Of a stretch of 64,000 nucleotides of DNA, positions 50,759 through 63,316 are shown piece after piece (position 1 is the first letter of the stretch; every line of letters begins with the position of its first letter). The notes below the pieces were generated by a model. That model saw only the letters and a list, made by a program, of their open reading frames with translations. It was not told the origin of the DNA and made no database searches. Origin of the DNA: Psychroserpens burtonensis DSM 12212 (GTDB taxonomy: Bacteria > Bacteroidota > Bacteroidia > Flavobacteriales > Flavobacteriaceae). The position numbers and the translations under genes were made by a program. The stretch is from the NCBI RefSeq assembly GCF_000425305.1, contig NZ_AUDE01000006.1:62001-126000 (forward strand), in the 5' to 3' direction.

Positions 50759-52342
50759 CTAATCTATCAAATCACCACAAAGCTTAACTTTTAGTTTAAC
50801 TGCACCAGGTAGATATGCCAAAGGAATGGATTCTTTTACTAAAATACTAATACTGTCTTCTGAAGCACCATTTTTCAGTAATTCACTTCCTACGTTGGTT
50901 AAAAGTCGCTCTAGTTCTTGTTTTTCATCACATTGCAATGTATTCACAATCAGTTCGTCTTCACTACTTATTTGAGCTATACATGCTCCGAAAGCATTAG
51001 CAACCTCTAAATGTTCTGGGAATATAACGTTTGATGCGCCTTCAATTTTTTTTGGCAATAAAAATGCACCACCACCACATGCAATTACTGGAATTTCCTT
51101 GGAGTCTGTTTTCAATTTATCTACTAACTTTTCAATAGATAATTGTATTTGATATTTTACTAATGCTAAGGCTTCAGAAAAATGTAGTCCAGAAATTTGC
51201 TCAATTTTCTCTGTTATAGCCGTTTTTTCTATAGAACCATTGATTTCTAATTGATTATTAGCCAAAAAGAAATCAGAAATTGTGAGTGTATCACCTTTAA
51301 AAGCAACTGCCTTTTCTTTAAGCCTATACCCCACAGAATCCGGGCCTAATTGACAGGTTTTATCCTTAAACCGAATAATAGTACCTCCGCCAATACCAAC
51401 AGCAACAACATCTGGCATTCTAAAGTTGGTAAGTACCCCTCCTATTTGCGCGGCTTGTGTGCTTTCTCTAGGAAAAAAATTGACTAGCACACCTCCATCT
51501 GAGGTTGTGCCGCCGACATCAATCACAATACCATTTGCAACCTTGGATAAAGCTCCAGCTCCTCGAATACTATTTGTTGGTCCTGACGAAATGGTGAGTA
51601 CAGGGAAATCTTGCGCTTGATCTAAAGACATAAGCGTTCCATCATTTTGACCGATAAATAATTGCGATGAAAAACCTAAACGTTGCACTGTATCTTTAAA
51701 AGCCCTTACCATTTTTAAAGCGACTCCCTGTAAGGCCGCATTAAGTATTGCTGCGTTTTCGCGTTCTAACAAGCCTAAACCGCCTAATTGATGAGAACAA
51801 CTTGTTCTTACAGCATCTCCTAGAACCTCTTTAGCCCAAACAGCGACTTGCAACTCTTGATCTGGTATTGTTTTTGAAAAAATACCTGTAATTGCTAAAG
51901 ATTCTATGTCGCCTTTCATTTTAAGAAGGCAGGCTTTAACTTCGTCTTCCTCTAAAGGACTAATCAGTCTTCCATCAAATTCGTAGCCCCCATGAACCAT
52001 ATATAAATGACGTCCTAAAATTAGTTTTAAATCTTCAGGGAAATCAGTCATTGTTGGGATCGCACTGCTTGCCGGTAAACCTATTCTTATGGCTCCTATT
52101 TTATTTAGCTCCTTGCGTTCGACTAAAGCATTAGTACAATGTGTCGTCCCAAGCATGATGTATTTAATGTCTTCTTTAGGAACATTTGAATCTAACAGCA
52201 CTTGCTTGATGGCATTTTCTATACCACTGCTGACATCTAAAGTGGTGGTTTGTTTCGTTTTTGCTAGTATATTATTATCATGAGATACCAATACAGCATC
52301 TGTATTGGTACCACCAACATCAACTCCAATTTTGTAGTACAT
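50759..52342 (-). CDS. Hydantoinase A/oxoprolinase-family protein, DUF917-associated type
   Basis: The 527 residues form an ASKHA ATPase-like hydantoinase: N-terminal GVDVGGTNTDAVLV, GTTHCTNALVER, LTISSGPTNSIRGAGA, and a second nucleotide motif IVIDVGGTTSDGGVLVNF. It is shorter than the 687-residue HyuA of the same operon and belongs to the group usually paired with a DUF917 protein. Indeed the DUF917 gene ends 2 bases before its start. It probably uses ATP to open or carboxylate a cyclic amide together with that partner. It is last in the operon. Confidence 0.87.
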   Translation of the reverse strand: MYYKIGVDVGGTNTDAVLVSHDNNILAKTKQTTTLDVSSGIENAIKQVLLDSNVPKEDIKYIMLGTTHCTNALVERKELNKIGAIRIGLPASSAIPTMTDFPEDLKLILGRHLYMVHGGYEFDGRLISPLEEDEVKACLLKMKGDIESLAITGIFSKTIPDQELQVAVWAKEVLGDAVRTSCSHQLGGLGLLERENAAILNAALQGVALKMVRAFKDTVQRLGFSSQLFIGQNDGTLMSLDQAQDFPVLTISSGPTNSIRGAGALSKVANGIVIDVGGTTSDGGVLVNFFPRESTQAAQIGGVLTNFRMPDVVAVGIGGGTIIRFKDKTCQLGPDSVGYRLKEKAVAFKGDTLTISDFFLANNQLEINGSIEKTAITEKIEQISGLHFSEALALVKYQIQLSIEKLVDKLKTDSKEIPVIACGGGAFLLPKKIEGASNVIFPEHLEVANAFGACIAQISSEDELIVNTLQCDEKQELERLLTNVGSELLKNGASEDSISILVKESIPLAYLPGAVKLKVKLCGDLID

Positions 52343-52344
52343 CT

Positions 52345-53430
52345 TTATTCTTTTTTATTTAATTCTTCAATCGGAACATATTTTTCTGTGTATCCAAACT
52401 TTTTTGGACCTGCTAATTCGATGCCTTCTGGTGTGCGCCATTGGTCGTCAGATTTCATTGCTAAAACAACGACTCGCGCACCATATTGAATGGTTTCGGC
52501 TGTAATTGGTCGTGCATTTTCAGCATCAATAAGAACAATTAAATCTGGGGTCATAGCCACTGGTTTACCGTCTATTTTTGCCATTAAAAATTCATTTTGA
52601 AAATCGAGTTGCATGTTACAACCTTGATTGTCATCTAGCCCCATAATTTCGCAAACTCCTTTATTCCAACGCCCATCAATTTTAATAGTAACATTACTTA
52701 CCTTTCCTGTAAACAATTTTATGGCCGCTGCATTTTCTATTAACGCATCTAACGGATTACGATTTTGTGCTTTCGCGTTCAAAATAGCCTCACCAAGCAT
52801 TTGAGCATAAGAAACTATACCGTGAACAGCAGCTTTTTTTACTTGTGCACCACTCATGGGATAGCATCCAATAGCACAACTACCACCCATTTGTATAGCA
52901 GTCGCCCCAACTAAGAGTTCTCCCCATTCATTAGATATGGTATCATATACATTTTTATTACCTTTTTCGTCCGCTTGTGTTATCGGTGAAACAGGAATGT
53001 CGTGCAAGGTAAATGTGACCATCTCTAATCTTGGAAAAGCCCTTCCCATGCCATCTGCATCGACTAATGGAATTTGTTTTTGAGCTGCAATTGAAAATGG
53101 TATAACCCCGTTAAGTCCTCCTGCCTCAGCGGGCATTACGGCATCAATTTTTCTTCCAAGATAGGATTCCATCATTTCAAAAGCTTTGATGAATTCGTCA
53201 CCTGAAAATAATTTTTCTACTAGGATCAATGGTGCTCCAAATGCGGCTATTGGTACAACCAATGCATCATCTTTTAATTCTTCAGCTTGTATTAATGAGA
53301 CATCACCATATTTATTAATCGCCGCTTTCGCTAATAGTTTTCCTATATAAGGGTCTCCACCTCCACCAGTTCCCAAAACAGTAGAGCCCATAGCGATATA
53401 GTCTATGTCTTTTGAGTTTATTTTTCTCAT
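52345..53430 (-). CDS. DUF917-family protein
   Basis: The 361 residues match DUF917: the Gly-rich start MGSTVLGTGGGGDPYIGK, then VVPIAAFGAPLILVEK, DAVMPAEAGGLNGVIPFSIA, and MGGSCAIGCYPMSGAQVKKA. The family is known mainly as the companion of hydantoinase-A-like proteins; the exact reaction is not settled. It lies between the permease (2 bases) and the second hydantoinase-A-like gene (2 bases), so the two are co-translated in effect and probably form one enzyme complex. Confidence 0.88.
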   Translation of the reverse strand: MRKINSKDIDYIAMGSTVLGTGGGGDPYIGKLLAKAAINKYGDVSLIQAEELKDDALVVPIAAFGAPLILVEKLFSGDEFIKAFEMMESYLGRKIDAVMPAEAGGLNGVIPFSIAAQKQIPLVDADGMGRAFPRLEMVTFTLHDIPVSPITQADEKGNKNVYDTISNEWGELLVGATAIQMGGSCAIGCYPMSGAQVKKAAVHGIVSYAQMLGEAILNAKAQNRNPLDALIENAAAIKLFTGKVSNVTIKIDGRWNKGVCEIMGLDDNQGCNMQLDFQNEFLMAKIDGKPVAMTPDLIVLIDAENARPITAETIQYGARVVVLAMKSDDQWRTPEGIELAGPKKFGYTEKYVPIEELNKKE

Positions 53431-53432
53431 TG

Positions 53433-54632
53433 TTATTTCATGATTTTTTGAAGTAAATAATAGACTAAAGCAGCCACAATAATTCCTAAAATATTTTTGA
53501 TTTGAGAGGTCATTACTAGCATTAAAATAACGCCACTAGCCCAAGAAATGACTCCTTTCCAATTGACCTTTTGAGGCATGTCTTGATACGTCTTAGAGAT
53601 GTAATAATCTGAAATCATAACACCAGCAATAGGTGTAATAGTTATTGTTAATAGGGTGATAAAACTCATGAAGTGGGTTAAGATTCCAAGAGCAGCTAAT
53701 AGTATTCCAACTAATCCAACAACTAAGGTTGTTTTAGAACGTTGTGAGTTATTTAATTTAAATAAATCATTGAATGCTAAACCAGAAGAATAGATATTCA
53801 TCACATTGGACGTCCAGGTCGCCAAAATTAAAATGGACATTGCAAAAAACGGAAATCCTAAAGTTGAAAATATGTCAACAATATCATAAGTACCTTGTGT
53901 AATCGCTAATATGGCTCCTATAGCCAAAAGACAAAGCGCAGAAGGTATAATACCGAATATAGAACCCAATATGGCATCTTTTTTTGTGGCTGCAAAACGA
54001 TTATAATCTGGCGATATAACACCACCAACCGATATAAAACCGATTGTGAAACTAATAGCTTGTAATAAGGGCATTTTTTCTTGAGGCTTAAAACTCAATA
54101 TCTCCTGAAAACTATGCGTTTTAAATGTGACAACTAATCCATAGATAAGAAGTAAAACGATAGCTGGTACGGCGATATAATTGAGCCATTTTAAGTATTT
54201 AAAACCAAACACTGCGGTGAGCACCATGATGATTCCCCAAAACACAGAAGAGAGCCATACTGGAATTTCTGGGCCATTCATTTCAATTAATATTTTTGAA
54301 AAAGAGGCCCCTGCAATATTACTTTGTATTCCAAACCAACCCAAAGTAGATAATCCTATAACCAAGCCTACTATTAATTTTGCCCCATGGTCTCCAAAAC
54401 TACTTGAGGCTAATGAAACAGTAGCTTTTCTCTTCTCTACAGCCGAAATACTAAGCAACGACATAAATAATACAACAAAGCTAAAGCCGACTAATCCTGC
54501 AAGTATAGAATGACCAAAACTGAGTGAAGCAATTAATGTACTCCCGACTAATAATGCCGGAACACTTACAATCCCACCGAACCATATTCCGGCAAGACTA
54601 AACCATTTCGTTGTATTTTGACTGTTTTCCAT
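53433..54632 (-). CDS. NCS1/CodB-type permease, probable hydantoin or nucleobase-like substrate
   Basis: About 12 TM helices in 399 residues, with the NCS1 start WFSLAGIWFGGIVSVPALLV and the central GLSTLGWFGIQSNIAGAS characteristic of cytosine-permease-like carriers. The NCS1 family contains the hydantoin transporter Mhp1 as well as purine and cytosine carriers. Placement inside a hydantoinase operon (3 bases after the cupin, 2 bases before DUF917) supports import of a cyclic amide across the inner membrane. Confidence 0.88.
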   Translation of the reverse strand: MENSQNTTKWFSLAGIWFGGIVSVPALLVGSTLIASLSFGHSILAGLVGFSFVVLFMSLLSISAVEKRKATVSLASSSFGDHGAKLIVGLVIGLSTLGWFGIQSNIAGASFSKILIEMNGPEIPVWLSSVFWGIIMVLTAVFGFKYLKWLNYIAVPAIVLLLIYGLVVTFKTHSFQEILSFKPQEKMPLLQAISFTIGFISVGGVISPDYNRFAATKKDAILGSIFGIIPSALCLLAIGAILAITQGTYDIVDIFSTLGFPFFAMSILILATWTSNVMNIYSSGLAFNDLFKLNNSQRSKTTLVVGLVGILLAALGILTHFMSFITLLTITITPIAGVMISDYYISKTYQDMPQKVNWKGVISWASGVILMLVMTSQIKNILGIIVAALVYYLLQKIMK

Positions 54633-54635
54633 TTT

Positions 54636-54956
54636 CTATTTAATTAAGGTATAAATAAGCGATGTGTCCTCCAATACGTTGCCTGCTTGCGCTTCAAAAG
54701 CTTTAATATATACAACATCCCCTTCTTTTAAATAGGCTTTTGAAGAGCCATCCTCGTTTAGCATTTCTATTTTTCCTTTTTGAATAATTGAAATTTCATG
54801 GCAGGCATGTTTCGTAAATCCTTTTTCAGGAATTCGAGTGCCTTTCTTTAAAAATACAGTGCCAAACTGAATATCAACTTGCTCATTCTTAATATGAAAT
54901 AAAGACATGTTATAATGCTCTTTAGACGACGGATATATTATGTTCTTAATTTCCAT
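54636..54956 (-). CDS. Single-domain cupin protein
   Basis: 106 residues with a cupin barrel: VDIQFGTVFLKKGTRIPEKG, HACHEISIIQKGKIEMLNED, then LKEGDVVYIKAFEAQAGNV. Metal-binding His and Glu residues occur in HACHE, though the second motif lacks the usual His. It could bind a ligand of the pathway as a small enzyme or sensor. Its ATG overlaps the racemase stop (TAATG) and the permease begins 3 bases after its end. Confidence 0.82.
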   Translation of the reverse strand: MEIKNIIYPSSKEHYNMSLFHIKNEQVDIQFGTVFLKKGTRIPEKGFTKHACHEISIIQKGKIEMLNEDGSSKAYLKEGDVVYIKAFEAQAGNVLEDTSLIYTLIK

Positions 54957-55756
54957 TAGTCAACGATGATATTATTTCCAAATTGATAGTCTTCTTTAAA
55001 TAAACCAAAACGTTTTATATCGTCTTCGGAAGGTGCTTCTGTGCTCCATTGTCTTGAAGGTTTCCAATTATAATTACGTTTTAAAATAGCAGCTTGCTCT
55101 GCTTGTTTTAATGCGGCTAACGAAGGATCTAATACTGGTACATTAAATCTGGATTGGATTTTTTTGAAAAAACCAAACTCTAAAGTACAGCCGAGAATAA
55201 TGGATTCCGCATGGTCTTTTTCAATCGCTAATTGAGCAGCTTCCATTAATTTTTCTTCGGTTACTTTATGATCTTTCTGAAACTCTGGTACTGTCATACC
55301 GACCGCTCTAAAAGAAGCGAGATGATCCTTATAGCCATAGTCTTTGATCGTAGCCTGCATTTCGTGTTCCCATTTTTTTTGACCAATAATTACAGAAAAC
55401 TTGTTAGATAATTTTAAAGCAATTTCTATCGAAGATTGACAAGGTCCAATGACCACCATATCTCCTGAAATTTCGCGAGTATCGAAAATATAAGGATCGT
55501 AAAAACAACCTATAATTAAAGCATCAAAGCCTTCTTTTGCTGCTTGTCTTGTTGCTTTTATTAAATCGGAAGCAATTAAAGCGTTAAAGGTTCTATATTC
55601 TAAATTGTCCATTTGACCAACAGAAGCGTTCAATGACCTCACATGCACTTCTGTATCTGGAAACTTGTTTTCTTTGATCATCGTAGCGAAAAAAGAATCG
55701 TAAGCATCAAAACCCACAGGGTTTATATACATTATTTTAATAGGTGTAGTTTCCAT
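54956..55756 (-). CDS. Asp/Glu/hydantoin racemase family protein
   Basis: The 266-residue protein has the two catalytic cysteines of the family, Cys84 in IIGCFYDP and Cys190 in ILGCTLEFG, flanked by typical VVIGPCQSS and MTVPEFQKDHK segments. Such enzymes interconvert stereoisomers; within hydantoin operons the member (HyuE) racemises 5-substituted hydantoins so that both enantiomers can be used. It starts 11 bases after hydantoinase B and overlaps the cupin start. Aspartate or maleate-type chemistry is the alternative. Confidence 0.87.
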   Translation of the reverse strand: METTPIKIMYINPVGFDAYDSFFATMIKENKFPDTEVHVRSLNASVGQMDNLEYRTFNALIASDLIKATRQAAKEGFDALIIGCFYDPYIFDTREISGDMVVIGPCQSSIEIALKLSNKFSVIIGQKKWEHEMQATIKDYGYKDHLASFRAVGMTVPEFQKDHKVTEEKLMEAAQLAIEKDHAESIILGCTLEFGFFKKIQSRFNVPVLDPSLAALKQAEQAAILKRNYNWKPSRQWSTEAPSEDDIKRFGLFKEDYQFGNNIIVD

Positions 55757-55767
55757 TTTAACTATTC

Positions 55768-57429
55768 TTATACGTTATAAAATTCTTTTGCTTCGCTTTT
55801 GCTTATGTATCCATTTTTCACATCTAATGCTACATAGTCTTTTGGTCTGTCTGCTGGTTTTCCGTAGCCACCACCAGTAGCTGTAACACATCTAACGATA
55901 TCACCTTTTTCTAAAGCTATATTTGTTCCTAAATTATGTCGCGTTTCTTCACCATTTTTTCGAATAATTTTAAAATAATTGTACGACCCATCATAGCCAC
56001 CATTCATCCCCCAAGTTTTCGTTTTTTCTCCTAAAAATGCGGCTGTAACATGTGCGCCATTAGAAACAATTTTATAATCTAGATATTGTCCGTTACCGCC
56101 TTGAAACTCACCATATCCACCACCTTCATTATGAAAAGCATATTGTTCTACCTGAATACCGTAGCGCATTTCTCTAATCTCAATAGGAATGTTATACGAT
56201 TCCCCACTTCCGCAAGATAGTTGCCCACGATTTCCGTCGTGCGTAGCAGAAGCTCCCCAACCACCGGCCAAGGGCTCAGCTTGAATATAAAATTGCTTGG
56301 TATCTTGATGAATGCCTGAAATAAATGTGGCACACACAGAGCGCAAATGTCCTGCTGGTAATTTATCTGGAATTAATGGTGCTAAAATTTTCCAGATTAA
56401 ATCGATAGAAGTGATTAAAACCTCGTAGTACACAGAAACTGCCGAAGGCGCTTCTGCACTTACAATTGTACCGGGTTCACAAAGGACTTTCATGGGTCTA
56501 AATGATCCGCCATTTGCATCCATTTGTGGTGTTGTAATCGCTTTAAATAAGCTTCTACAGCCTGTTACCAGTCCGCTAAATGATAGGTTAGTTGCTCCTT
56601 TTACTTGTGGATGGGAACCGTTAAAATCGGCTATAAACTCCGTATCTGTAACCGTAATTTTTGCCTTAATGGGAAAAGGGCCTTCTCCAAAACCATTATC
56701 TTCAATCGCAGATTCACCTTCATAAACACCATTTGGAATTGTTTTTAAAGCTTCAATAGCCATACGTTCACCATAATTCAAGAAATCCTCTGTCGCTTTT
56801 TTATAAGTCTCTAGTCCATATTTTTCAATAATTGAAACCACACGTTTCGCACCAACTTCTGCTGCAGCAATACCAGCGTGTAAATCACCTAAAGTACTTT
56901 CTGGTAATCTTACATTGGCTTTAATTAAATCGAGAATAGCGTGATTAAAAACACCTTCTAATTTTACCTTTATAAATGGAAAATGTAACCCTTCCTGATA
57001 AATTTCTGTTGCCACTGTTGATACTGAACCAGGAAATGTACCTCCCAATTCTGTCCAATGGGCCTTATTTACTGTGAATGCGATGAGTTCTTTTTTATAA
57101 AAAACCGGATAGATGATAGACACATCCGATAGATGTGTTCCTCCACCTGAATAGGGTGTATTGGCGATTACAATATCGCCTTCTTTAAGAGTGTTTTCTC
57201 CTTTAAATTTTTCTAATGTTGACTTAACAACAGCATCTAAAGCTGCTAAAAATGCAGTCACACCATTTCCTTGTGCTAATAATTCACCTTTTGTATCTGT
57301 AATACCAACGGCATAATCTAAAGACTCATATATAATTGGACTCATACTGGTACGCTCTAATGTTTTGAACATTTCATCTCCGGCTGCTACTAAGGCATCT
57401 TGAATAATTTCTAGTGTAAATTTTTCCAT
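55768..57429 (-). CDS. hyuB: Hydantoinase B/oxoprolinase B subunit
   Basis: The 553-residue protein is a full-length HyuB: SPIIYESLDYAVGITDTKGE near the start, IANTPYSGGGTHLSDVSIIY with conserved His/Asp, then LTGCRSLFKA-like and GGWGASATHDGNRGQLSCGS segments and the C-terminal TATGGGYGKPADRP. HyuB subunits carry the ring-opening active site and act with an ATP-using HyuA subunit on N-methylhydantoin, 5-oxoproline or related cyclic amides, or in related ATP-dependent carboxylases. It begins 2 bases after HyuA. Confidence 0.92.
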   Translation of the reverse strand: MEKFTLEIIQDALVAAGDEMFKTLERTSMSPIIYESLDYAVGITDTKGELLAQGNGVTAFLAALDAVVKSTLEKFKGENTLKEGDIVIANTPYSGGGTHLSDVSIIYPVFYKKELIAFTVNKAHWTELGGTFPGSVSTVATEIYQEGLHFPFIKVKLEGVFNHAILDLIKANVRLPESTLGDLHAGIAAAEVGAKRVVSIIEKYGLETYKKATEDFLNYGERMAIEALKTIPNGVYEGESAIEDNGFGEGPFPIKAKITVTDTEFIADFNGSHPQVKGATNLSFSGLVTGCRSLFKAITTPQMDANGGSFRPMKVLCEPGTIVSAEAPSAVSVYYEVLITSIDLIWKILAPLIPDKLPAGHLRSVCATFISGIHQDTKQFYIQAEPLAGGWGASATHDGNRGQLSCGSGESYNIPIEIREMRYGIQVEQYAFHNEGGGYGEFQGGNGQYLDYKIVSNGAHVTAAFLGEKTKTWGMNGGYDGSYNYFKIIRKNGEETRHNLGTNIALEKGDIVRCVTATGGGYGKPADRPKDYVALDVKNGYISKSEAKEFYNV

Positions 57430-57431
57430 TA

Positions 57432-59495
57432 TTATACGTTTTGAAGTGTTAAAATTAAGTTACCATAAATGTCGATATTCAATTTATGAACTGGCGTAAC
57501 TACCGTTGTAGTGTCTTTTTCAGCAATAATTGCTGGCCCAGAAATAGTCATATCTGGTTCTAGTAAATGGCGATGATAAAATTTTGTTGATTGAATTCCT
57601 AAATCATCAAAATCTACTTTTCTAGTGTCAAAAATAGCATCTTCAACTTTTTTACCTGTTTTCTGTAGTGTTGGAAAATCTGGTTTTTCAACAGCTACTT
57701 CAGCAACTAAATGAAAGTTTACAAGCTCAACAGGCGCTTCTAATTGAAAAGAATAGTGCTTTTTATGTTCCTTATGAAAGTGAGAAATAATAGTTTCTAA
57801 AGGCATACTTTCTGAAAAGTCTTCTAATAATACTTTTACATAATGTTCTTGCCCTGCATAACGTAAATCAGCATAATAGGTGAATTTTATATCATCTAAA
57901 GTATAACCATCTAATTTAAAACTAGTGATAGCTTGGTGTTCAATATTTTTAAATTCAGTTTCAATAATCGCTTTTTGACTATCTAATAAGGTAATAACAT
58001 TGGTACGTATATAATCTCTACGAATATCTGACATTAACATTCCAAAAGCAGAAAACACACCTGCGTGCGAGGGAATTATTAGTTCAGAAACTTGTAACTC
58101 TCTGGCTAAATCAGAGCCATGCATAGCACCACCACCTCCAATAACAACCATTGTAAAATCTCGTGGATCGTATCCTTTATTTACTGAAATTAACTTTAAC
58201 GCGTTAATCATGTTGGCATTTGCGATGCGTAAAACACCTTTAGCAACATCCTCTTTTGAGCCCTTTAATTTTTCACATAATGGTTTTGAAGCGTCTTCAA
58301 TACCTTTAAAATTAGGCTGTAGTTCGCCTCCTAAAAAATAATCTGGATGAATACGTCCTGTTATAATATTGGCATCTGTAGTGGTAAGGCTCATGCCACC
58401 ACGACCATAAGCTGCTGGTCCAGGCATTGCTCCAACACTTTTTGGTCCTACATGCATTTTTCCTCCTTTATCAATCCAAGCAATACTACCGCCTCCATTT
58501 CCAATTTCTACAATGTCTATAACGGGCGTTTGTATTGGGTAACCAGCTTCGGTACGAGAATGTTCAATTTTATAATTTGTAGTAATTTTAACTTGTCCAT
58601 TTTCTACTAACGCGCATTTTGCTGTTGTACCACCAATATCTAAAACAATTAAATTCTTTTTATGAATAACATTCCCTAAAGCAATTGCCCCAAAAACACC
58701 ACTTGCGGGTCCAGACTCTACCATAGTAATTGGGTTTGACCTCACATCGTTAAGCGTCGTAATTCCGCCATTAGATTGCATGATATAGGGTGATTGTTTT
58801 AACCCTTGACTTTTTAGTTTTTCTTCTAAATTATTCAAATATTTTTTTGCGATTGGCAAAACATAACCAGATAAAACTGTAGTACTGGTGCGCTCATACT
58901 CACGCCATTCTCTAGTAACTTGGTTTGAAGCAATAATTTCTACCTCAGGATATAATTGGTTTAATTTATCTACTAATTCTAATTCATGTTTAGGGTTTTT
59001 ATAAGCATGTAATAAACAAACTGCAATAGCTTCTACATCTTCTTCTTTGCACGTTTTTATGATATCAGTTATATTTTTTGTGCTTAATTCTTTTAAAACT
59101 TCTCCTTTATAATTAAGTCTTTCTTCAACCTCAAACCGTAAATATCTTGGTACGAAAGGCGGTTGTTTTACAAAGTTAAAATTGAATAAGTCAGGTCTAT
59201 TGCAACGTGCAATTTCTAAGACATCTCTAAATCCTGCTGTAGTTATTAAAGCTGTTTTTGCACCTTTCCGCTCAGTTAATGCATTAATAACTACGGTTGT
59301 TCCGTGCGCAAAAAAATTAATTTCTTTTAAATTTAAATTAGCCTTGGTAATTGTATTTAAAATACCTTCTTCAAAGTTAGAAGGTGTAGTATCTGATTTT
59401 GCTACTTTCACTCCGGTTGGCTTCCCTGTTTTCTCGTCGAAACCAAGGCAGACTAAATCTGTAAAAGTGCCTCCTATATCTGTTGCTACTCTCAT
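57432..59495 (-). CDS. hyuA: Hydantoinase A/oxoprolinase A subunit
   Basis: The 687-residue ASKHA protein has DIGGTFTDLVCLGFD at the N-terminus, FFAHGTTVVINALTERKG, VESGPASGVFGAIALG, LDIGGTTAKCALVENG and GGGGAMHGSDLA, all standard for N-methylhydantoinase A. It phosphorylates or activates the cyclic amide using ATP, together with HyuB which follows after 2 bases. A hairpin terminator lies only about 25 bases before its start, separating it from the TonB receptor; readthrough or attenuation there may set the enzyme level. The exact substrate cannot be read from sequence. Confidence 0.93.
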   Translation of the reverse strand: MRVATDIGGTFTDLVCLGFDEKTGKPTGVKVAKSDTTPSNFEEGILNTITKANLNLKEINFFAHGTTVVINALTERKGAKTALITTAGFRDVLEIARCNRPDLFNFNFVKQPPFVPRYLRFEVEERLNYKGEVLKELSTKNITDIIKTCKEEDVEAIAVCLLHAYKNPKHELELVDKLNQLYPEVEIIASNQVTREWREYERTSTTVLSGYVLPIAKKYLNNLEEKLKSQGLKQSPYIMQSNGGITTLNDVRSNPITMVESGPASGVFGAIALGNVIHKKNLIVLDIGGTTAKCALVENGQVKITTNYKIEHSRTEAGYPIQTPVIDIVEIGNGGGSIAWIDKGGKMHVGPKSVGAMPGPAAYGRGGMSLTTTDANIITGRIHPDYFLGGELQPNFKGIEDASKPLCEKLKGSKEDVAKGVLRIANANMINALKLISVNKGYDPRDFTMVVIGGGGAMHGSDLARELQVSELIIPSHAGVFSAFGMLMSDIRRDYIRTNVITLLDSQKAIIETEFKNIEHQAITSFKLDGYTLDDIKFTYYADLRYAGQEHYVKVLLEDFSESMPLETIISHFHKEHKKHYSFQLEAPVELVNFHLVAEVAVEKPDFPTLQKTGKKVEDAIFDTRKVDFDDLGIQSTKFYHRHLLEPDMTISGPAIIAEKDTTTVVTPVHKLNIDIYGNLILTLQNV

Positions 59496-59519
59496 TTTAT
59501 TTGTGTTTATATATATTTA

Positions 59520-59552
59520 TTAAAAAAGCCACTAATGGTCATTTAGTGGCTT
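59520..59552 (-). terminator. Hairpin terminator between the TonB receptor and hyuA
   Basis: AAGCCACTAA (59526-59535) and TTAGTGGCTT (59543-59552) form a perfect 10-bp stem. On the minus strand the stem is followed by a T-run and the hyuA ATG comes about 25 bases later. No promoter box was found between stem and ATG, so it may act as a partial terminator or attenuator. Confidence 0.75.
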
Positions 59553-59616
59553 AGCATTCACATTAATTCACTTAAAAATTAACTCAAATATTAATGAAAC
59601 GTTTCTTCTTTATAAA

Positions 59617-61977
59617 TTAAAACTTATAAGTAAGCGTTGTGCCAAAAGCGGTTGGTTGACCTAACCATGCTAAATCCGAACCTCCATTAGAGAAGGTTTG
59701 GTCAAAAAATTCTGTAATATATTGTGTGTCTGTAATATTTGTTCCCCATAAGGCAACAGAAAAATCATCATTAAACGTGAAGCTAATTCTGGCGTTTAAG
59801 AGACTATATCTAGGTGATACTGCTGCATTATCTTCATGCCAATACATTTCCCCTGTACCCTCTAAATTTATATTACCATTAAAAGTTATTTTGTCCGAAA
59901 CATTAAAACTAGATTCCAAACCAAGATTGTAACTATCTTGAGGTACTAATGGTGTTGAATTACCTGAGACATCAATAATCTCATTCGTTCCAGTACTTAC
60001 TGTTGATGTACCATTTATAATTCTAGATTTACTTACGCCGTAACTACCTAATATATCAAGCCAATTTGAAGCACGTACTCGAAGATCTGCTTCAAAACCT
60101 ACAGATTCACTTTCTGCAATATTAAAATTACCAATCAGAATTTGCCCTGCGCCACCATCAAGAACTAATGCATATAATTGCTGATTAGAGAAATCGGTAT
60201 AATATGCTGAGATGTTAAGTATAAATCGATTATCCCAATAAGAATTTTTAATTCCAATCTCGTAATTATCGGTAATTTCAGGTTCAAAAGATGTTTCATA
60301 CCGAACTGTTTGACCTTGGTTAAAGCCACCTGTTCTGTAACCCTTTCCATAATTAGCATACATCATCATGTTTTCTGTTGCTTTAAATGCTAATGAAAAT
60401 TTAGGTTGTAATTGTGTATCCGTTCTTTCTGGGTTTGTGCCTTCACTTCTATTATCCTGACTGATATTATCATTATCGAATCGAAGACCTGCTGATAACG
60501 TTAATTTATCTGTAAACTGGTAGTCAATAAAGCCAAAGATTGCAAGGGTTCTATAAGTGTTTGTAAAATCACCAATAGCAAGAGGACTTTGTATACCTGA
60601 GGGTGCAAATGGTGGTGAAAAGAATCCGAAATCGGCAGTAGCTGTCGTTATAAGTGTTTTGTCTAGGTTTTGATAAAACATACCTAAATCCCAGTTTATC
60701 TTACTATCCTCATCACTCAGGGAACCTAAACGTATCTCTTGATTGAAGGTTTTTGTATTACTATCTTGATCCTGTCTTAATACATCAGCAGCAGTAAAAT
60801 CTAAGTCTCCAAAAGCATTTCTATCTACTTTATTAAATGTCGTTAGCGACGTTAATTTTATTTTATTCAAATTAAAATTCACCTTTAAATTACCGTAGGT
60901 GCTTTTTAAAGTTCCTACTCCGTCTTGATCTGCAAGGATTGCCATGTTGTCATAATCATCTGGTGCTATTTTTGCATTACCATCTTTTGGTATCGCATAA
61001 TAAAGACCGCCTGCTTCTGTGTCAATTACCTGACCAGTAAGCGTAGCAGATATTTTAGAAGATAGTTTAGCTTTTAATTGTGCCCTAAGTGTTAAATCTT
61101 CTATATAATCTGGCGCCTGATCTAGAGTTGTATTGTTCAATAGACCATCTCCTTTTTTATATGAACCAGAAACACGATAGAATAATTTGTCCTTTATAAG
61201 AGGTCCAGTAGATGATAACTGTGCTTTTAATAAATTTCCGTTTGCATAACCAACTTGAGCCTTACTTCTATATGTATTAGTTGGTTCATTGGTAACAATA
61301 TTTATGGCACCAGCAATAGCGTTTTTACCATATAAAGCGCCCTGAGGCCCTTTTACAACTTCAATCAATGCCACGTCAAATAATTCTTGGTTTAATAAAT
61401 TGGCGTCAGGCAGCGTTACTCCATCAATTACAAATGCTATAGGTGCATCTCCATTTCTGATTTGTGAAATTCCTCTTACCGTAATAAAATTATTTCCTAT
61501 ATTTTGTGAAGATGTAAAATTAACATTAGGGATTTGGTCTGTAAATGTTTGAATATTATTAATGCCCTTGGTCTCTATATCTTCAGCGGTAAAAGAAACA
61601 ACAGATTCTGCAATTGTTTGTACAGATTCTGCTCTTCTTCTAGCTTGTCCAATTACATTTCTAAATCCTTTAACCATTACTGCATCTAATTGAGAACTAT
61701 CTTCTTCAAGTAGAACATCAATTTTTGATTTTCCATTAACAACTACTTCTACAGTTTTAAATCCTAAAAAAGAAAAAACAAGAGTGGATCCTTGCCTAAC
61801 CTCAATTGAATAATTTCCATCAAAATCGGTTGTCGTTCCATTTGAAGCTCCTTTTTCAATAACATTCACTCCTAGTAATACTTCAGAAGCAGTTTTGACA
61901 TTACCGCTTACTGTTAATTCTTGAGAGAATGAGAATAATGGAAGAAAAATAAGTAATACTAATAAATTTCGTAACAT
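59617..61977 (-). CDS. TonB-dependent outer membrane receptor
   Basis: From MLRNLLVLLIF (start at 61977), 786 residues. A signal peptide ends at FSFSQ, and a CarboxypepD_reg-like domain (about 8-90, with LLGVNVIEKGASNGTTTDFD) precedes the plug (VRGISQIRNGDAPIAFVIDG, VKGPQGALYGKNAIAGAINI) and a beta barrel ending in an aromatic KF. It brings a substrate through the outer membrane using TonB energy. There is no SusD partner, so it resembles small-molecule receptors rather than glycan systems. The earlier in-frame TTG at 62031 lies beyond the signal peptide and is not needed. It is first in the hydantoinase operon and is the likely entry point for the substrate. Confidence 0.92.
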   Translation of the reverse strand: MLRNLLVLLIFLPLFSFSQELTVSGNVKTASEVLLGVNVIEKGASNGTTTDFDGNYSIEVRQGSTLVFSFLGFKTVEVVVNGKSKIDVLLEEDSSQLDAVMVKGFRNVIGQARRRAESVQTIAESVVSFTAEDIETKGINNIQTFTDQIPNVNFTSSQNIGNNFITVRGISQIRNGDAPIAFVIDGVTLPDANLLNQELFDVALIEVVKGPQGALYGKNAIAGAINIVTNEPTNTYRSKAQVGYANGNLLKAQLSSTGPLIKDKLFYRVSGSYKKGDGLLNNTTLDQAPDYIEDLTLRAQLKAKLSSKISATLTGQVIDTEAGGLYYAIPKDGNAKIAPDDYDNMAILADQDGVGTLKSTYGNLKVNFNLNKIKLTSLTTFNKVDRNAFGDLDFTAADVLRQDQDSNTKTFNQEIRLGSLSDEDSKINWDLGMFYQNLDKTLITTATADFGFFSPPFAPSGIQSPLAIGDFTNTYRTLAIFGFIDYQFTDKLTLSAGLRFDNDNISQDNRSEGTNPERTDTQLQPKFSLAFKATENMMMYANYGKGYRTGGFNQGQTVRYETSFEPEITDNYEIGIKNSYWDNRFILNISAYYTDFSNQQLYALVLDGGAGQILIGNFNIAESESVGFEADLRVRASNWLDILGSYGVSKSRIINGTSTVSTGTNEIIDVSGNSTPLVPQDSYNLGLESSFNVSDKITFNGNINLEGTGEMYWHEDNAAVSPRYSLLNARISFTFNDDFSVALWGTNITDTQYITEFFDQTFSNGGSDLAWLGQPTAFGTTLTYKF

Positions 61978-62092: not shown

Positions 62093-63316
62093 ATGGAAAA
62101 TCAAAATTTAGACGCTTTAAACTTAACTAACACTGTTTTTAATGTGTTAATCGAAAGTGTTGTAAATCATTTTAAGCTTAAACATAACATATTAATTAAG
62201 TATAAAGATTCTCAATTATATGGTTTTGGAAACTATAATACTGAACAACCTAGCTTAAAAGGAGATTTTGAACTAATTATAAAAAGTTATGTCAACGGTA
62301 AATATTTATATAATAAACAGCGAGAAGCTGCCTCTGGAAAACCAATTATCAAAATAAGTGGTGATTACAAAAATTTATTTTTTAAATATTTAGGTTTTCA
62401 AAATATCACGGATTTTATTAAAAGTGACTTGTTTACTTCAAAACAGAGAATCAAACAACTAGAATTAATAACTAAAGGAGACAAAATTAACGAACACCAT
62501 TATGTATGTTATTATTACGGAGAAGATAGTAAAATGAATAAGGGTCAAGTTATTATACATAATAATTGGAAAACCATAGAAATGATTTACGTGTATGTGA
62601 ATGAAAAGGAGGAAAAAAATACGTACACATTTTATGGTAATATTACTCAGAGTGAAGACTTTGCACACATTAATACCAAATATTATGTAGGTAATAAAAA
62701 GAGCGAAGGCGCAAAATTTATATTTTTTATTGGAAAATCATCACCAAATGAAAGACAGTATTTAATTGGGACGTATTGCGGATTTGACAAATACGATAGA
62801 GCAATTTCTGGTAAAATGATTTTAAAAAAATATAACTCTAAAGCTGAAATTGAAGATGAAGCAAATGATAAATCTTTCGATCCAATACTTTGTCAAGAAT
62901 TAAATAAAAATAGAACAGTAGTGGAGAGCAACATTAGGAAAAATCCTTTGCTATTTTCTAAAAAAAGTCCATTTGCTCAGGTTTTGACACGTACATCTGG
63001 AGATTATGTTTTTAAATTTGAAATAGAACAAACTAGGCACGAACTAAAATTAAAAATAGAAAAATACCACTTTAATATTATTAGTATAAATGATTCTATA
63101 ATAATTGAAGATGATAGAGTTACTGTATTAAACAAAGGGCAAATAATTAATTTTGATTTTTCAGTATCTGGGATGTTTCATTTACAAAAAATATCTATTT
63201 ATATCAATGCTATATATTTTGTAGAGAATGATAATAAAGTTACAGGCATTTTTAATGGTGTGGATATTAATAATAAAATTGTTTCTGGTAATTTATCTAT
63301 TGTAGCTATTAACTAA
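62093..63316 (+). CDS. Unrecognised protein with two similar beta-rich halves, divergent from the hydantoinase operon
   Basis: The 407-residue, Lys/Asn/Ile-rich soluble protein has no signal peptide, TM helix or helix-turn-helix I can recognise. Residues 1-130 are mixed helical (LNLTNTVFNVLIESVVNHFK). Residues about 135-250 and 300-407 look like two copies of one beta domain. Each ends in the same pattern, IGTYCGFDKYDRAISGKMIL at 225-244 and TGIFNGVDINNKIVSGNLSI at 384-403. The gene shares a 60-base divergent promoter region with the TonB receptor, so it could sense or regulate the pathway. Function unknown. Confidence 0.7.
   Translation: MENQNLDALNLTNTVFNVLIESVVNHFKLKHNILIKYKDSQLYGFGNYNTEQPSLKGDFELIIKSYVNGKYLYNKQREAASGKPIIKISGDYKNLFFKYLGFQNITDFIKSDLFTSKQRIKQLELITKGDKINEHHYVCYYYGEDSKMNKGQVIIHNNWKTIEMIYVYVNEKEEKNTYTFYGNITQSEDFAHINTKYYVGNKKSEGAKFIFFIGKSSPNERQYLIGTYCGFDKYDRAISGKMILKKYNSKAEIEDEANDKSFDPILCQELNKNRTVVESNIRKNPLLFSKKSPFAQVLTRTSGDYVFKFEIEQTRHELKLKIEKYHFNIISINDSIIIEDDRVTVLNKGQIINFDFSVSGMFHLQKISIYINAIYFVENDNKVTGIFNGVDINNKIVSGNLSIVAIN

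Follow-up and report, generated by a model that had tools for sequence, protein, structure and literature searches.

A flavobacterial operon with two HyuA-type modules may serve the catabolism of cyclic dipeptides

Which ring compound is taken up and opened by an operon that joins an outer membrane receptor to two hydantoinase-like modules? This question is raised by a locus of Psychroserpens burtonensis DSM 12212, which we analyzed in a window of 64,000 nucleotides (contig NZ_AUDE01000006.1, positions 62,001 to 126,000). From 61977 to 50759, on the minus strand of the window, open reading frame (ORF) reading and Pfam searches delimit an eight-gene operon in which all ORFs are open. It encodes a TonB-dependent receptor, HyuA, HyuB, a racemase-family protein, a small cupin-like protein, an NCS1-family permease, a DUF917 protein (DUF917 is the old Pfam name of the domains now called S-Me-THD_N and S-Me-THD_C), and a short second HyuA-like protein, HyuA2. 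A sequence-only reading had seen here a complete uptake-to-hydrolysis operon for a cyclic amide. We propose that the substrate may be cyclic dipeptides (2,5-diketopiperazines) rather than a hydantoin or a lactam. Our leading but tentative interpretation is that the operon is a cyclic-dipeptide catabolic island, perhaps for proline-containing rings, with two parallel ring-openers.

The eight genes, their order, and their coordinates were borne out, including the receptor start at 61977 and the tight spacing after hyuA. Gaps of 2 bases separate hyuA from hyuB, the NCS1 gene from the DUF917 gene, and the DUF917 gene from the HyuA2 gene; hyuB lies 11 bases from the racemase gene and the cupin-like gene 3 bases from the NCS1 gene, and the racemase and cupin-like genes overlap by 1 base at base 54956. 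The receptor gene ends 121 bases before hyuA. Every product has a Pfam match except the 106-residue cupin-like protein, for which neither Pfam nor NCBIfam gave a match; a homologous second copy in locus L022 (L022:7132-7482) matches Cupin_2 at E=0.009, below the cut-off.

The arrangement is conserved beyond chance. A scan with a single DUF917 protein as the query against 84,980 species, each represented by a single genome, which covers close relatives only, yielded 18 loci at 74 to 86% identity, 16 in Flavobacteriaceae and two in gammaproteobacterial metagenome-assembled genomes (MAGs). The synteny check found all eight genes in the same order in 8 of the 18 loci (L006, L007, L008, L011, L012, L016, L021, and L022). 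Two of these have an extra gene between the cupin and NCS1 genes (L021:7804-8790 and L022:7808-8800), which in L022 encodes a zinc-type dehydrogenase/quinone reductase according to Pfam and in L021 a similar protein; L022 also has two cupins. Locus L012 belongs to Flagellimonas flava DSM 22638 and L022 to Aquimarina sediminis. The joining of two HyuA-type modules and uptake genes in one unit, which the sequence-only reading had stressed, is supported: HyuAB and the DUF917 end occur together in 14 of the 18 loci and on three plasmids described below. The linkage of a mere subset of the genes, named in that reading as a refuting outcome, is seen in part, in L013 (TonB receptor, NCS1, DUF917, and HyuA2, without HyuAB, racemase, and cupin) and in the gammaproteobacterial loci (L020, with NCS1-DUF917-HyuA2 only, and L023, which ends within DUF917). 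The NCS1 gene is missing from L018, L014 is a short contig in which cupin to HyuA2 are visible, and L019 begins within HyuA, with the receptor not in view.

HyuAB belongs to the family of the caprolactamase CapAB. HyuA carries the phosphate motifs DIGGTFTDL and DIGGT and the adenosine motif GAMPGP (GxxPGP), as expected of a CapA-type protein by the definitions in the relevant part of PMC8453981. HyuB has three residues of the putative metal tetrad, H99, D102, and H124 (T98-H99-L-S-D102), and its D38 aligned with an Asp of N-methylhydantoinase, which has Gln at the place of H124; the alignment was made with that enzyme and not directly with CapB. The HyuA phosphate and adenosine motifs and the Asp-His-Asp-His site of HyuB are family likenesses. 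Unlike CapAB, the window proteins scored 495 and 261 bits against the CapA and CapB equivalog models (NF050156 and NF050157), for which the cut-offs are 1000 and 1000, and their genes are joined to those of a racemase, an NCS1 permease, a TonB receptor, and a second module. Among solved structures, N-methylhydantoinase (7hk5) is the best relative of both HyuA and HyuB. A passage of PMC6061476 has already suggested some genes of the CapAB/hydantoinase/oxoprolinase family as cyclic-dipeptide hydrolases.

The racemase points toward a peptide-derived ring, the kind of ring on which its nearest solved relative, OpaE (9qbx, E=6.8e-34), acts. The OpaE paper, in the section consulted, defines the OpaE-like set as V/I/L20, Y/F/W25, V/I/L131, and G/P132 plus two cysteine positions; the allantoin/hydantoin racemase (KpAllR type) set is N/D12, M17, T/S118, and T119. 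With V14, Y19, I124, G125, C84, and C190, the window racemase is OpaE-like, and with V, Y, I, and G at the KpAllR positions it falls outside the allantoin/hydantoin set. The OpaE-like residues are found in all 11 whole flavobacterial copies (the window and 10 others, the broken L009 and L010 copies not being counted) and in Parageobacillus; the Thermus racemase is cut off. The NozR-like class is represented by Rhizobium L068 (four of four positions) and Novosphingobium (three of four), and NozR is tied to cyclo-D-Trp-D-Trp in the OpaE paper. Although the window protein agrees with the OpaE/NozR epimerases in the pocket residues that serve for diagnosis and in the positions of both cysteines, OpaE is a fungal biosynthetic enzyme, whereas the window racemase gene sits with hydrolases and importers. 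Among the 14 HyuAB loci the racemase gene is whole in 10, split into two frames in L010 (L010:7357-8144), reduced to a C-terminal remnant in L009 (L009:8217-8465), and absent from L015 and L017; it has therefore often been lost.

Neighbors of HyuAB on plasmids provide a further indication of the substrate. A HyuB tblastn search against plasmids returned 925 records, of which 40 were listed. The best four of the 925, at 48 to 51% identity, come from three species (Parageobacillus thermoglucosidasius, a Novosphingobium, and Planococcus glaciei), and the one plasmid opened per species also held DUF917-HyuA2 in 3 of 3 cases, across Bacillota and Pseudomonadota (the second P. glaciei record was left out of this count). 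On Parageobacillus pGEOTH01, HyuA-HyuB is followed by a cupin, an Xaa-Pro peptidase, 1-pyrroline-5-carboxylate (P5C) dehydrogenase, and proline dehydrogenase, and NCS1-DUF917-HyuA2 lies on the same plasmid; the P5C dehydrogenase scored above its NCBIfam cut-off, and the best matches of the proline dehydrogenase and the peptidase scored below theirs. Novosphingobium has an independent assembly of HyuA2, DUF917, racemase, TonB receptor, HyuA, HyuB, and Xaa-Pro peptidase. In Planococcus, HyuAB adjoins a fragment of the peptidase and the NCS1 gene is split in two. Overall, of the seven plasmid loci opened, five have an Xaa-Pro peptidase close to HyuAB, in one case as a fragment. When loci are sorted by HyuB identity, the viewed flanks include this peptidase in 5 of 10 at 36 to 51% versus 0 of 17 at 28 to 32% (Fisher P=0.003), some of the latter regions being cut by contig ends. 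Opp-type peptide transporters adjoin DUF917-HyuA2 in L060, L070, L071, and L073 and HyuAB in L082, L083, and L116. An ectoine ring was set aside as the substrate, since the Parageobacillus peptidase reached 257 bits with Xaa-Pro dipeptidase PepQ (cut-off, 630) but 115 and 84 bits with the models for ectoine hydrolase.

DUF917 and HyuA2 appear as a linked pair far beyond this operon. A DUF917 tblastn search against plasmids gave 143 records, all below 60% identity; 40 were listed and 20 were opened. At 34% identity and above, all 15 opened loci have HyuA2 close to DUF917; the two are direct neighbors in 13 loci and one gene apart in the other two, where the spacer is a small hypothetical ORF (Mesorhizobium) or a second DUF917 (Rhizobium L068); in two unannotated loci of the 15, HyuA2 was checked by tblastn. 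It was not near DUF917 in any of the five loci opened at 24 to 30.3% identity, three of which (Thalassospira, Agrobacterium, and Lichenihabitans) adjoin urocanate hydratase, with histidine ammonia-lyase as well in Lichenihabitans. These plasmid clusters of urocanate hydratase and DUF917 (L074:8995-11803, L075:8872-13539, and L076:8869-15190, the last with histidine ammonia-lyase) are in their own right probably systems for thiohydantoin/ergothioneine-type degradation.

Sequence comparison sets the urocanase-linked proteins apart. E72, E102, D126, and E171 are kept in 31 of 31 aligned DUF917 proteins (HyuA2-linked and flavobacterial); the urocanase-linked three show P, Q/H, V/A, and S instead. 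Because Sulfitobacter and Parabacteroides DUF917 proteins, with HyuA2 not in view, keep E102, D126, and E171 (with D at 72), these residues mark off the urocanase-linked three and not HyuA2 linkage. In a tree of 38 DUF917 proteins, which has weak deeper forks and several long branches, the 17 flavobacterial-type sequences (including that of L020) form one fully supported group that falls among the HyuA2-linked proteins, and the urocanase-linked three are placed elsewhere. On the HyuA2 side, both DxGGT motifs are present in 14 of 15 aligned proteins; the GxxPGP motif is absent from all 15 (the window, L020, and 13 plasmid proteins) and present in all four HyuA proteins aligned, and the window HyuA2 lacks the Pfam Hydant_A_C domain. 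The HyuA2 with altered phosphate motifs is a second Parageobacillus copy, which, with its domain partly missing, forms a divergent DUF917/HyuA2 pair beside the first (L061:5084-7594). The linkage of the pair is observed; that HyuA2 and DUF917 form a complex and that HyuA2 uses ATP is plausible. The view of the pair as an ATP-dependent ring-opener, put forward in the sequence-only reading, accordingly keeps its support from linkage but not from the CapA-type adenosine motif, which HyuA2 lacks.

The two modules can exist separately. All 19 genomes searched (18 relatives and the window genome) have the S-Me-THD domain and 17 have HyuB, the exceptions being G693, the Aestuariivivens genome of L013, for which 99% completeness is listed, and G694, from which a 3.8-kb contig comes. 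A HyuB-free genome that carries the trio implies that NCS1-DUF917-HyuA2 can exist without HyuAB. In the two gammaproteobacterial genomes, HyuB is on a separate contig from the NCS1-DUF917-HyuA2 end, and plasmid loci in Listeria, Lactiplantibacillus, Geobacillus, and Sodalis have NCS1-DUF917-HyuA2 with HyuAB not in view. In Listeria and Lactiplantibacillus, the Bacillota trio repeats the gene content and order of the NCS1-DUF917-HyuA2 end; the Listeria, Lactiplantibacillus, and Geobacillus loci differ from the window in that the TonB receptor, HyuAB, racemase, and cupin are not in the viewed flanks. All three names of the trio occur in a Lacticaseibacillus rhamnosus gene table excerpted from PMC7513527, and an excerpted Clostridioides difficile expression table (PMC12915319) lists permease, DUF917, and hydantoinase (CDR20291_1615-1617), all with positive values; neither excerpt gives the genes a function. 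Conversely, annotation and tblastn found no DUF917 within 9 kb of HyuAB in 4 of 4 loci with HyuB at 41 to 43% identity (Devosia, Mycetohabitans, Thermus, and Qingshengfaniella). HyuA of these four has 50 to 51% identity to the window protein versus 49 to 53% in the three species with both modules; HyuA being equally close in both groups, the split is drawn by HyuB alone. In Ketogulonicigenium L072, DUF917-HyuA2 is accompanied by a more distant HyuAB (35 and 30%) together with an M20 peptidase and AroM.

The cyclic-dipeptide interpretation is preferred because of the Xaa-Pro peptidase and proline-oxidation neighbors, the OpaE-like racemase, the Opp transporters, the makeup of cyclodipeptide oxidase clusters (see below), the intact HyuAB motifs, the suggestion in the cited passage of PMC6061476, and the lack of a carbamoylase-family gene among the eight operon genes (the remaining genome was not searched). 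Several observations weigh against it. In the flavobacterial loci themselves, searches with M24, M20, proline dehydrogenase, and P5C dehydrogenase queries found no relative; no Xaa-Pro peptidase lies near HyuAB in the Devosia and Mycetohabitans loci; and the plasmid loci were taken from among the highest-ranked matches. In a test within Gammaproteobacteria, using regions fetched from 20 of the 52 genomes that matched HyuB, the peptidase was near HyuB in 0 of 3 window-like loci (36 to 45%) and 0 of 17 others. The racemase is broken or absent in 4 of the 14 HyuAB-bearing loci, that of Shinella L078 has a mixed residue set (V, L, I, T), and the gammaproteobacterial locus L116 has, near an Opp-HyuA-HyuB-HyuB cluster (on the opposite strand, about 1.5 kb from HyuAB), a racemase with the full allantoin/hydantoin set (L116:14312-14989, minus strand; N, M, T, T), so that hydantoins stay possible substrates for part of the HyuAB class. 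HyuA2 lacks the adenosine motif, and for the NCS1 carrier the resemblance is to permeases of cytosine and hydantoins (cytosine permease 7qoa, 3.1e-25; Mhp1-type chains, 2.9e-18). Hydantoins are a close rival to cyclic dipeptides. HyuAB, a racemase, and an Mhp1-like NCS1 carrier are the classical hydantoin gene set, which we count for this alternative. A 5-substituted hydantoin would be imported by NCS1, equilibrated at C5 by the racemase, and converted by HyuAB and/or HyuA2-DUF917 to an N-carbamoyl amino acid for a carbamoylase encoded elsewhere. We regard such salvage as possible, given the N-methylhydantoinase 7hk5 at the top of the solved relatives of HyuA and HyuB and the L116 racemase, but the missing operon carbamoylase, the OpaE-like residues of the window racemase, and the pairing of HyuAB with Xaa-Pro peptidases in several relatives, and with proline oxidation in one, count against it. 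Also in favor of hydantoins, PMC11055893 infers a hydantoinase-like activity for DUF917 proteins. The paper further reports that cyclodipeptide oxidase (CDO) clusters, including those without a cyclodipeptide synthase, are enriched in DUF917 proteins, hydantoin-type racemases, and peptide transporters; the window operon differs in having no CDO, and the same part of that paper treats hydantoin/allantoin-like substrates or biosynthesis. Hydrolysis of a lactam or 5-oxoproline is very improbable: caprolactamase provides the NCBIfam models nearest to HyuAB, but the scores of 495 and 261 of 1000 bits are far under the equivalog cut-offs, and neither the racemase nor the second module would have an evident role.

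The remaining alternatives concern how the two modules relate. They might act in series on one substrate in an obligate two-step ring opening, as the sequence-only reading had suggested, and their co-occurrence in 14 of 18 loci and on the three opened plasmids of other phyla would suit such a route. We set it aside as improbable, given the G693 genome, which has the DUF917-HyuA2 end without HyuB, the DUF917 end alone in the gammaproteobacterial loci, the trio-only Listeria, Lactiplantibacillus, Geobacillus, and Sodalis plasmid loci, and the four loci with HyuAB but no DUF917 within 9 kb. DUF917 might instead desulfurize a thiohydantoin, with HyuAB hydrolyzing the resulting hydantoin. The window protein shares both Pfam domains with thiohydantoin and S-methyl-thiohydantoin desulfurases, and these are the two NCBIfam models that it matched; its scores (122.8 versus 440 and 132 versus 450 bits) are, however, below both equivalog cut-offs. 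A urocanase neighborhood is the context expected for thiohydantoin desulfurases, and the window DUF917 is HyuA2-linked in an operon with no lyase or hydratase, urocanate hydratase included. The three urocanase-linked proteins lie elsewhere in the tree, with HyuA2 not in view and other residues at positions 72, 102, 126, and 171. Scores, tree position, and gene context together led us to set aside the breakdown of thiohydantoin or ergothioneine by DUF917 as highly doubtful. As for the preferred cyclic-dipeptide reading, a bolder form of it would make HyuA2-DUF917 a separate and widespread class of ATP-dependent cyclic-dipeptide hydrolase with two subunits, DUF917 taking the part of HyuB, and would make the operon a complete marine diketopiperazine pathway from the outer membrane to the dipeptide; we consider this form rather unlikely.

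The operon is a patchy accessory island. The S-Me-THD domain occurs in 6 of 397 Flavobacteriaceae genomes drawn evenly (the window genome counted) and in 1 of 395 in a phylum draw, the window genome itself; in a class draw, a protein query found 3 of 295, namely, the window genome and two distant matches at 26% identity. The domain is absent from two genomes of the same genus (G339 and G558), and because the flanking PNPOx protein had no match there at E≤1e-20, an empty insertion site is not readable. Flavobacterial-type NCS1-DUF917(-HyuA2) genes at 72 to 78% identity are present in the two gammaproteobacterial MAGs (L020:8777-12686 and L023:6310-8276). The genes upstream of L020 and L023 are similar by eye (the scanned L020 one has transglycosylase and LysM domains), which argues for real transfer and not a binning error. 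Cross-phylum transfer of NCS1-DUF917(-HyuA2) into Gammaproteobacteria is likely.

Coordinates of the operon genes and of other features are collected in Table 1. NCBIfam siderophore and heme models were listed for the TonB receptor, all below cut-off. The NCS1 permease scored 92.9 bits against PF02133 (above the cut-off of 23.5) and 107 bits against TIGR00800 (below the cut-off of 353).

Table 1. Positions of operon genes, a divergent neighbor, and lipoprotein-like relatives (window coordinates unless a locus is named)
Feature	Coordinates	Strand	Evidence
TonB-dependent receptor, 786 residues, operon gene 1	59617..61977	-	Pfam Plug, TonB_dep_Rec_b-barrel, CarbopepD_reg_2; ATG at 61977
HyuA, putative ATP-binding subunit of ATP-dependent lactamase/hydantoinase	57432..59495	-	Pfam Hydant_A_N, Hydantoinase_A, Hydant_A_C
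HyuB, putative metal-site subunit, HyuA partner	55768..57429	-	Pfam Hydantoinase_B, 511 bits
Asp/Glu/hydantoin-racemase family protein, OpaE-like pocket residues	54956..55756	-	Pfam Asp_Glu_race
Small cupin-like protein, 106 residues	54636..54956	-	Resemblance to L022 second copy
NCS1-family permease, predicted inner membrane importer	53433..54632	-	Pfam Transp_cyt_pur
S-Me-THD (former DUF917) protein, HyuA2-linked type	52345..53430	-	Pfam S-Me-THD_N, S-Me-THD_C
HyuA2, short HyuA-like ASKHA protein, presumed DUF917 partner	50759..52342	-	Pfam Hydant_A_N, Hydantoinase_A only
Divergent gene, 407 residues, candidate sensor/regulator	62093..63316	+	Conserved upstream of receptor
Lipoprotein-like S-Me-THD (DUF917) protein	L013:7332-8687	+	Directly after TonB receptor; both domains above cut-off
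Lipoprotein-like S-Me-THD (DUF917) protein	L009:3093-4445	+	Directly after TonB receptor; both domains above cut-off

The divergent gene and the receptor gene have a common 115-bp intergenic region. Of the 14 related loci that include a receptor gene, 12 have the divergent gene ahead of it; the loci without it in view, L009 and L022, extend only ∼0.5 and 0.1 kb upstream. No Pfam domain was found in its product. The structure model (pLDDT, 59.5; pTM, 0.37) has two barrels and N-terminal helices, and a fold search gave weak lipocalin-like barrels, with a DUF4822 protein at the top E-value (TM-scores, 0.17 and 0.23); given the low-confidence model and weak matches, we draw no function for it. Beside it, just past the window end, a membrane protein with an AraC-type C terminus by eye (L137:1800-2951) is a possible regulator.

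A lipoprotein-like DUF917 copy occurs in 2 of the 19 genomes searched (L013 and L009). Both proteins have 450 residues and, by eye, a cysteine following a hydrophobic stretch at the N terminus, and they occupy the position of a SusD-type partner. The L013 model (pLDDT, 66) matched the solved family member 2o3i (E=6.5e-17; TM-score, 0.58 to 0.70). Both copies keep E102, D126, and E171, but D124 is replaced by N and E72 by A or K. The SusD-like position and the lack of an ATP supply if the protein is exported suggest that it may be a binding protein; our guess is that it may be an enzyme turned surface binding protein, capturing the ring without ATP.

For the preferred cyclic-dipeptide reading, we propose the following route. 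Passage of the compound through the outer membrane would depend on the TonB receptor and passage through the inner membrane on the NCS1 carrier. The racemase, judging from its residues, could epimerize the alpha carbons of the intact ring. HyuAB and HyuA2-DUF917 would open rings in parallel, possibly acting on different isomers or ring types. By analogy with caprolactamase, HyuA would activate the amide with ATP and the HyuB metal site would hydrolyze it; in the second putative ring-opener, DUF917 would stand in HyuB's place, in a presumed complex with presumed ATP use. Linear dipeptides would pass to general peptidases; some relatives encode an Xaa-Pro peptidase, and one encodes proline-degrading enzymes, beside HyuAB.

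In the open-access literature, to which our search was limited (subscription papers being outside its scope), we found no description of this operon or of an assayed HyuA2-DUF917 enzyme among the titles, abstract openings, and passages covered. According to PMC3852281, little is known of how diketopiperazines, which are abundant in nature, are degraded. If the proposal is correct, genes would be named for a diketopiperazine route from uptake to hydrolysis, a function would be assigned to the HyuA2-DUF917 pair, met here in Bacillota, Pseudomonadota, and Bacteroidota, and many “hydantoinase/oxoprolinase” annotations would become testable.

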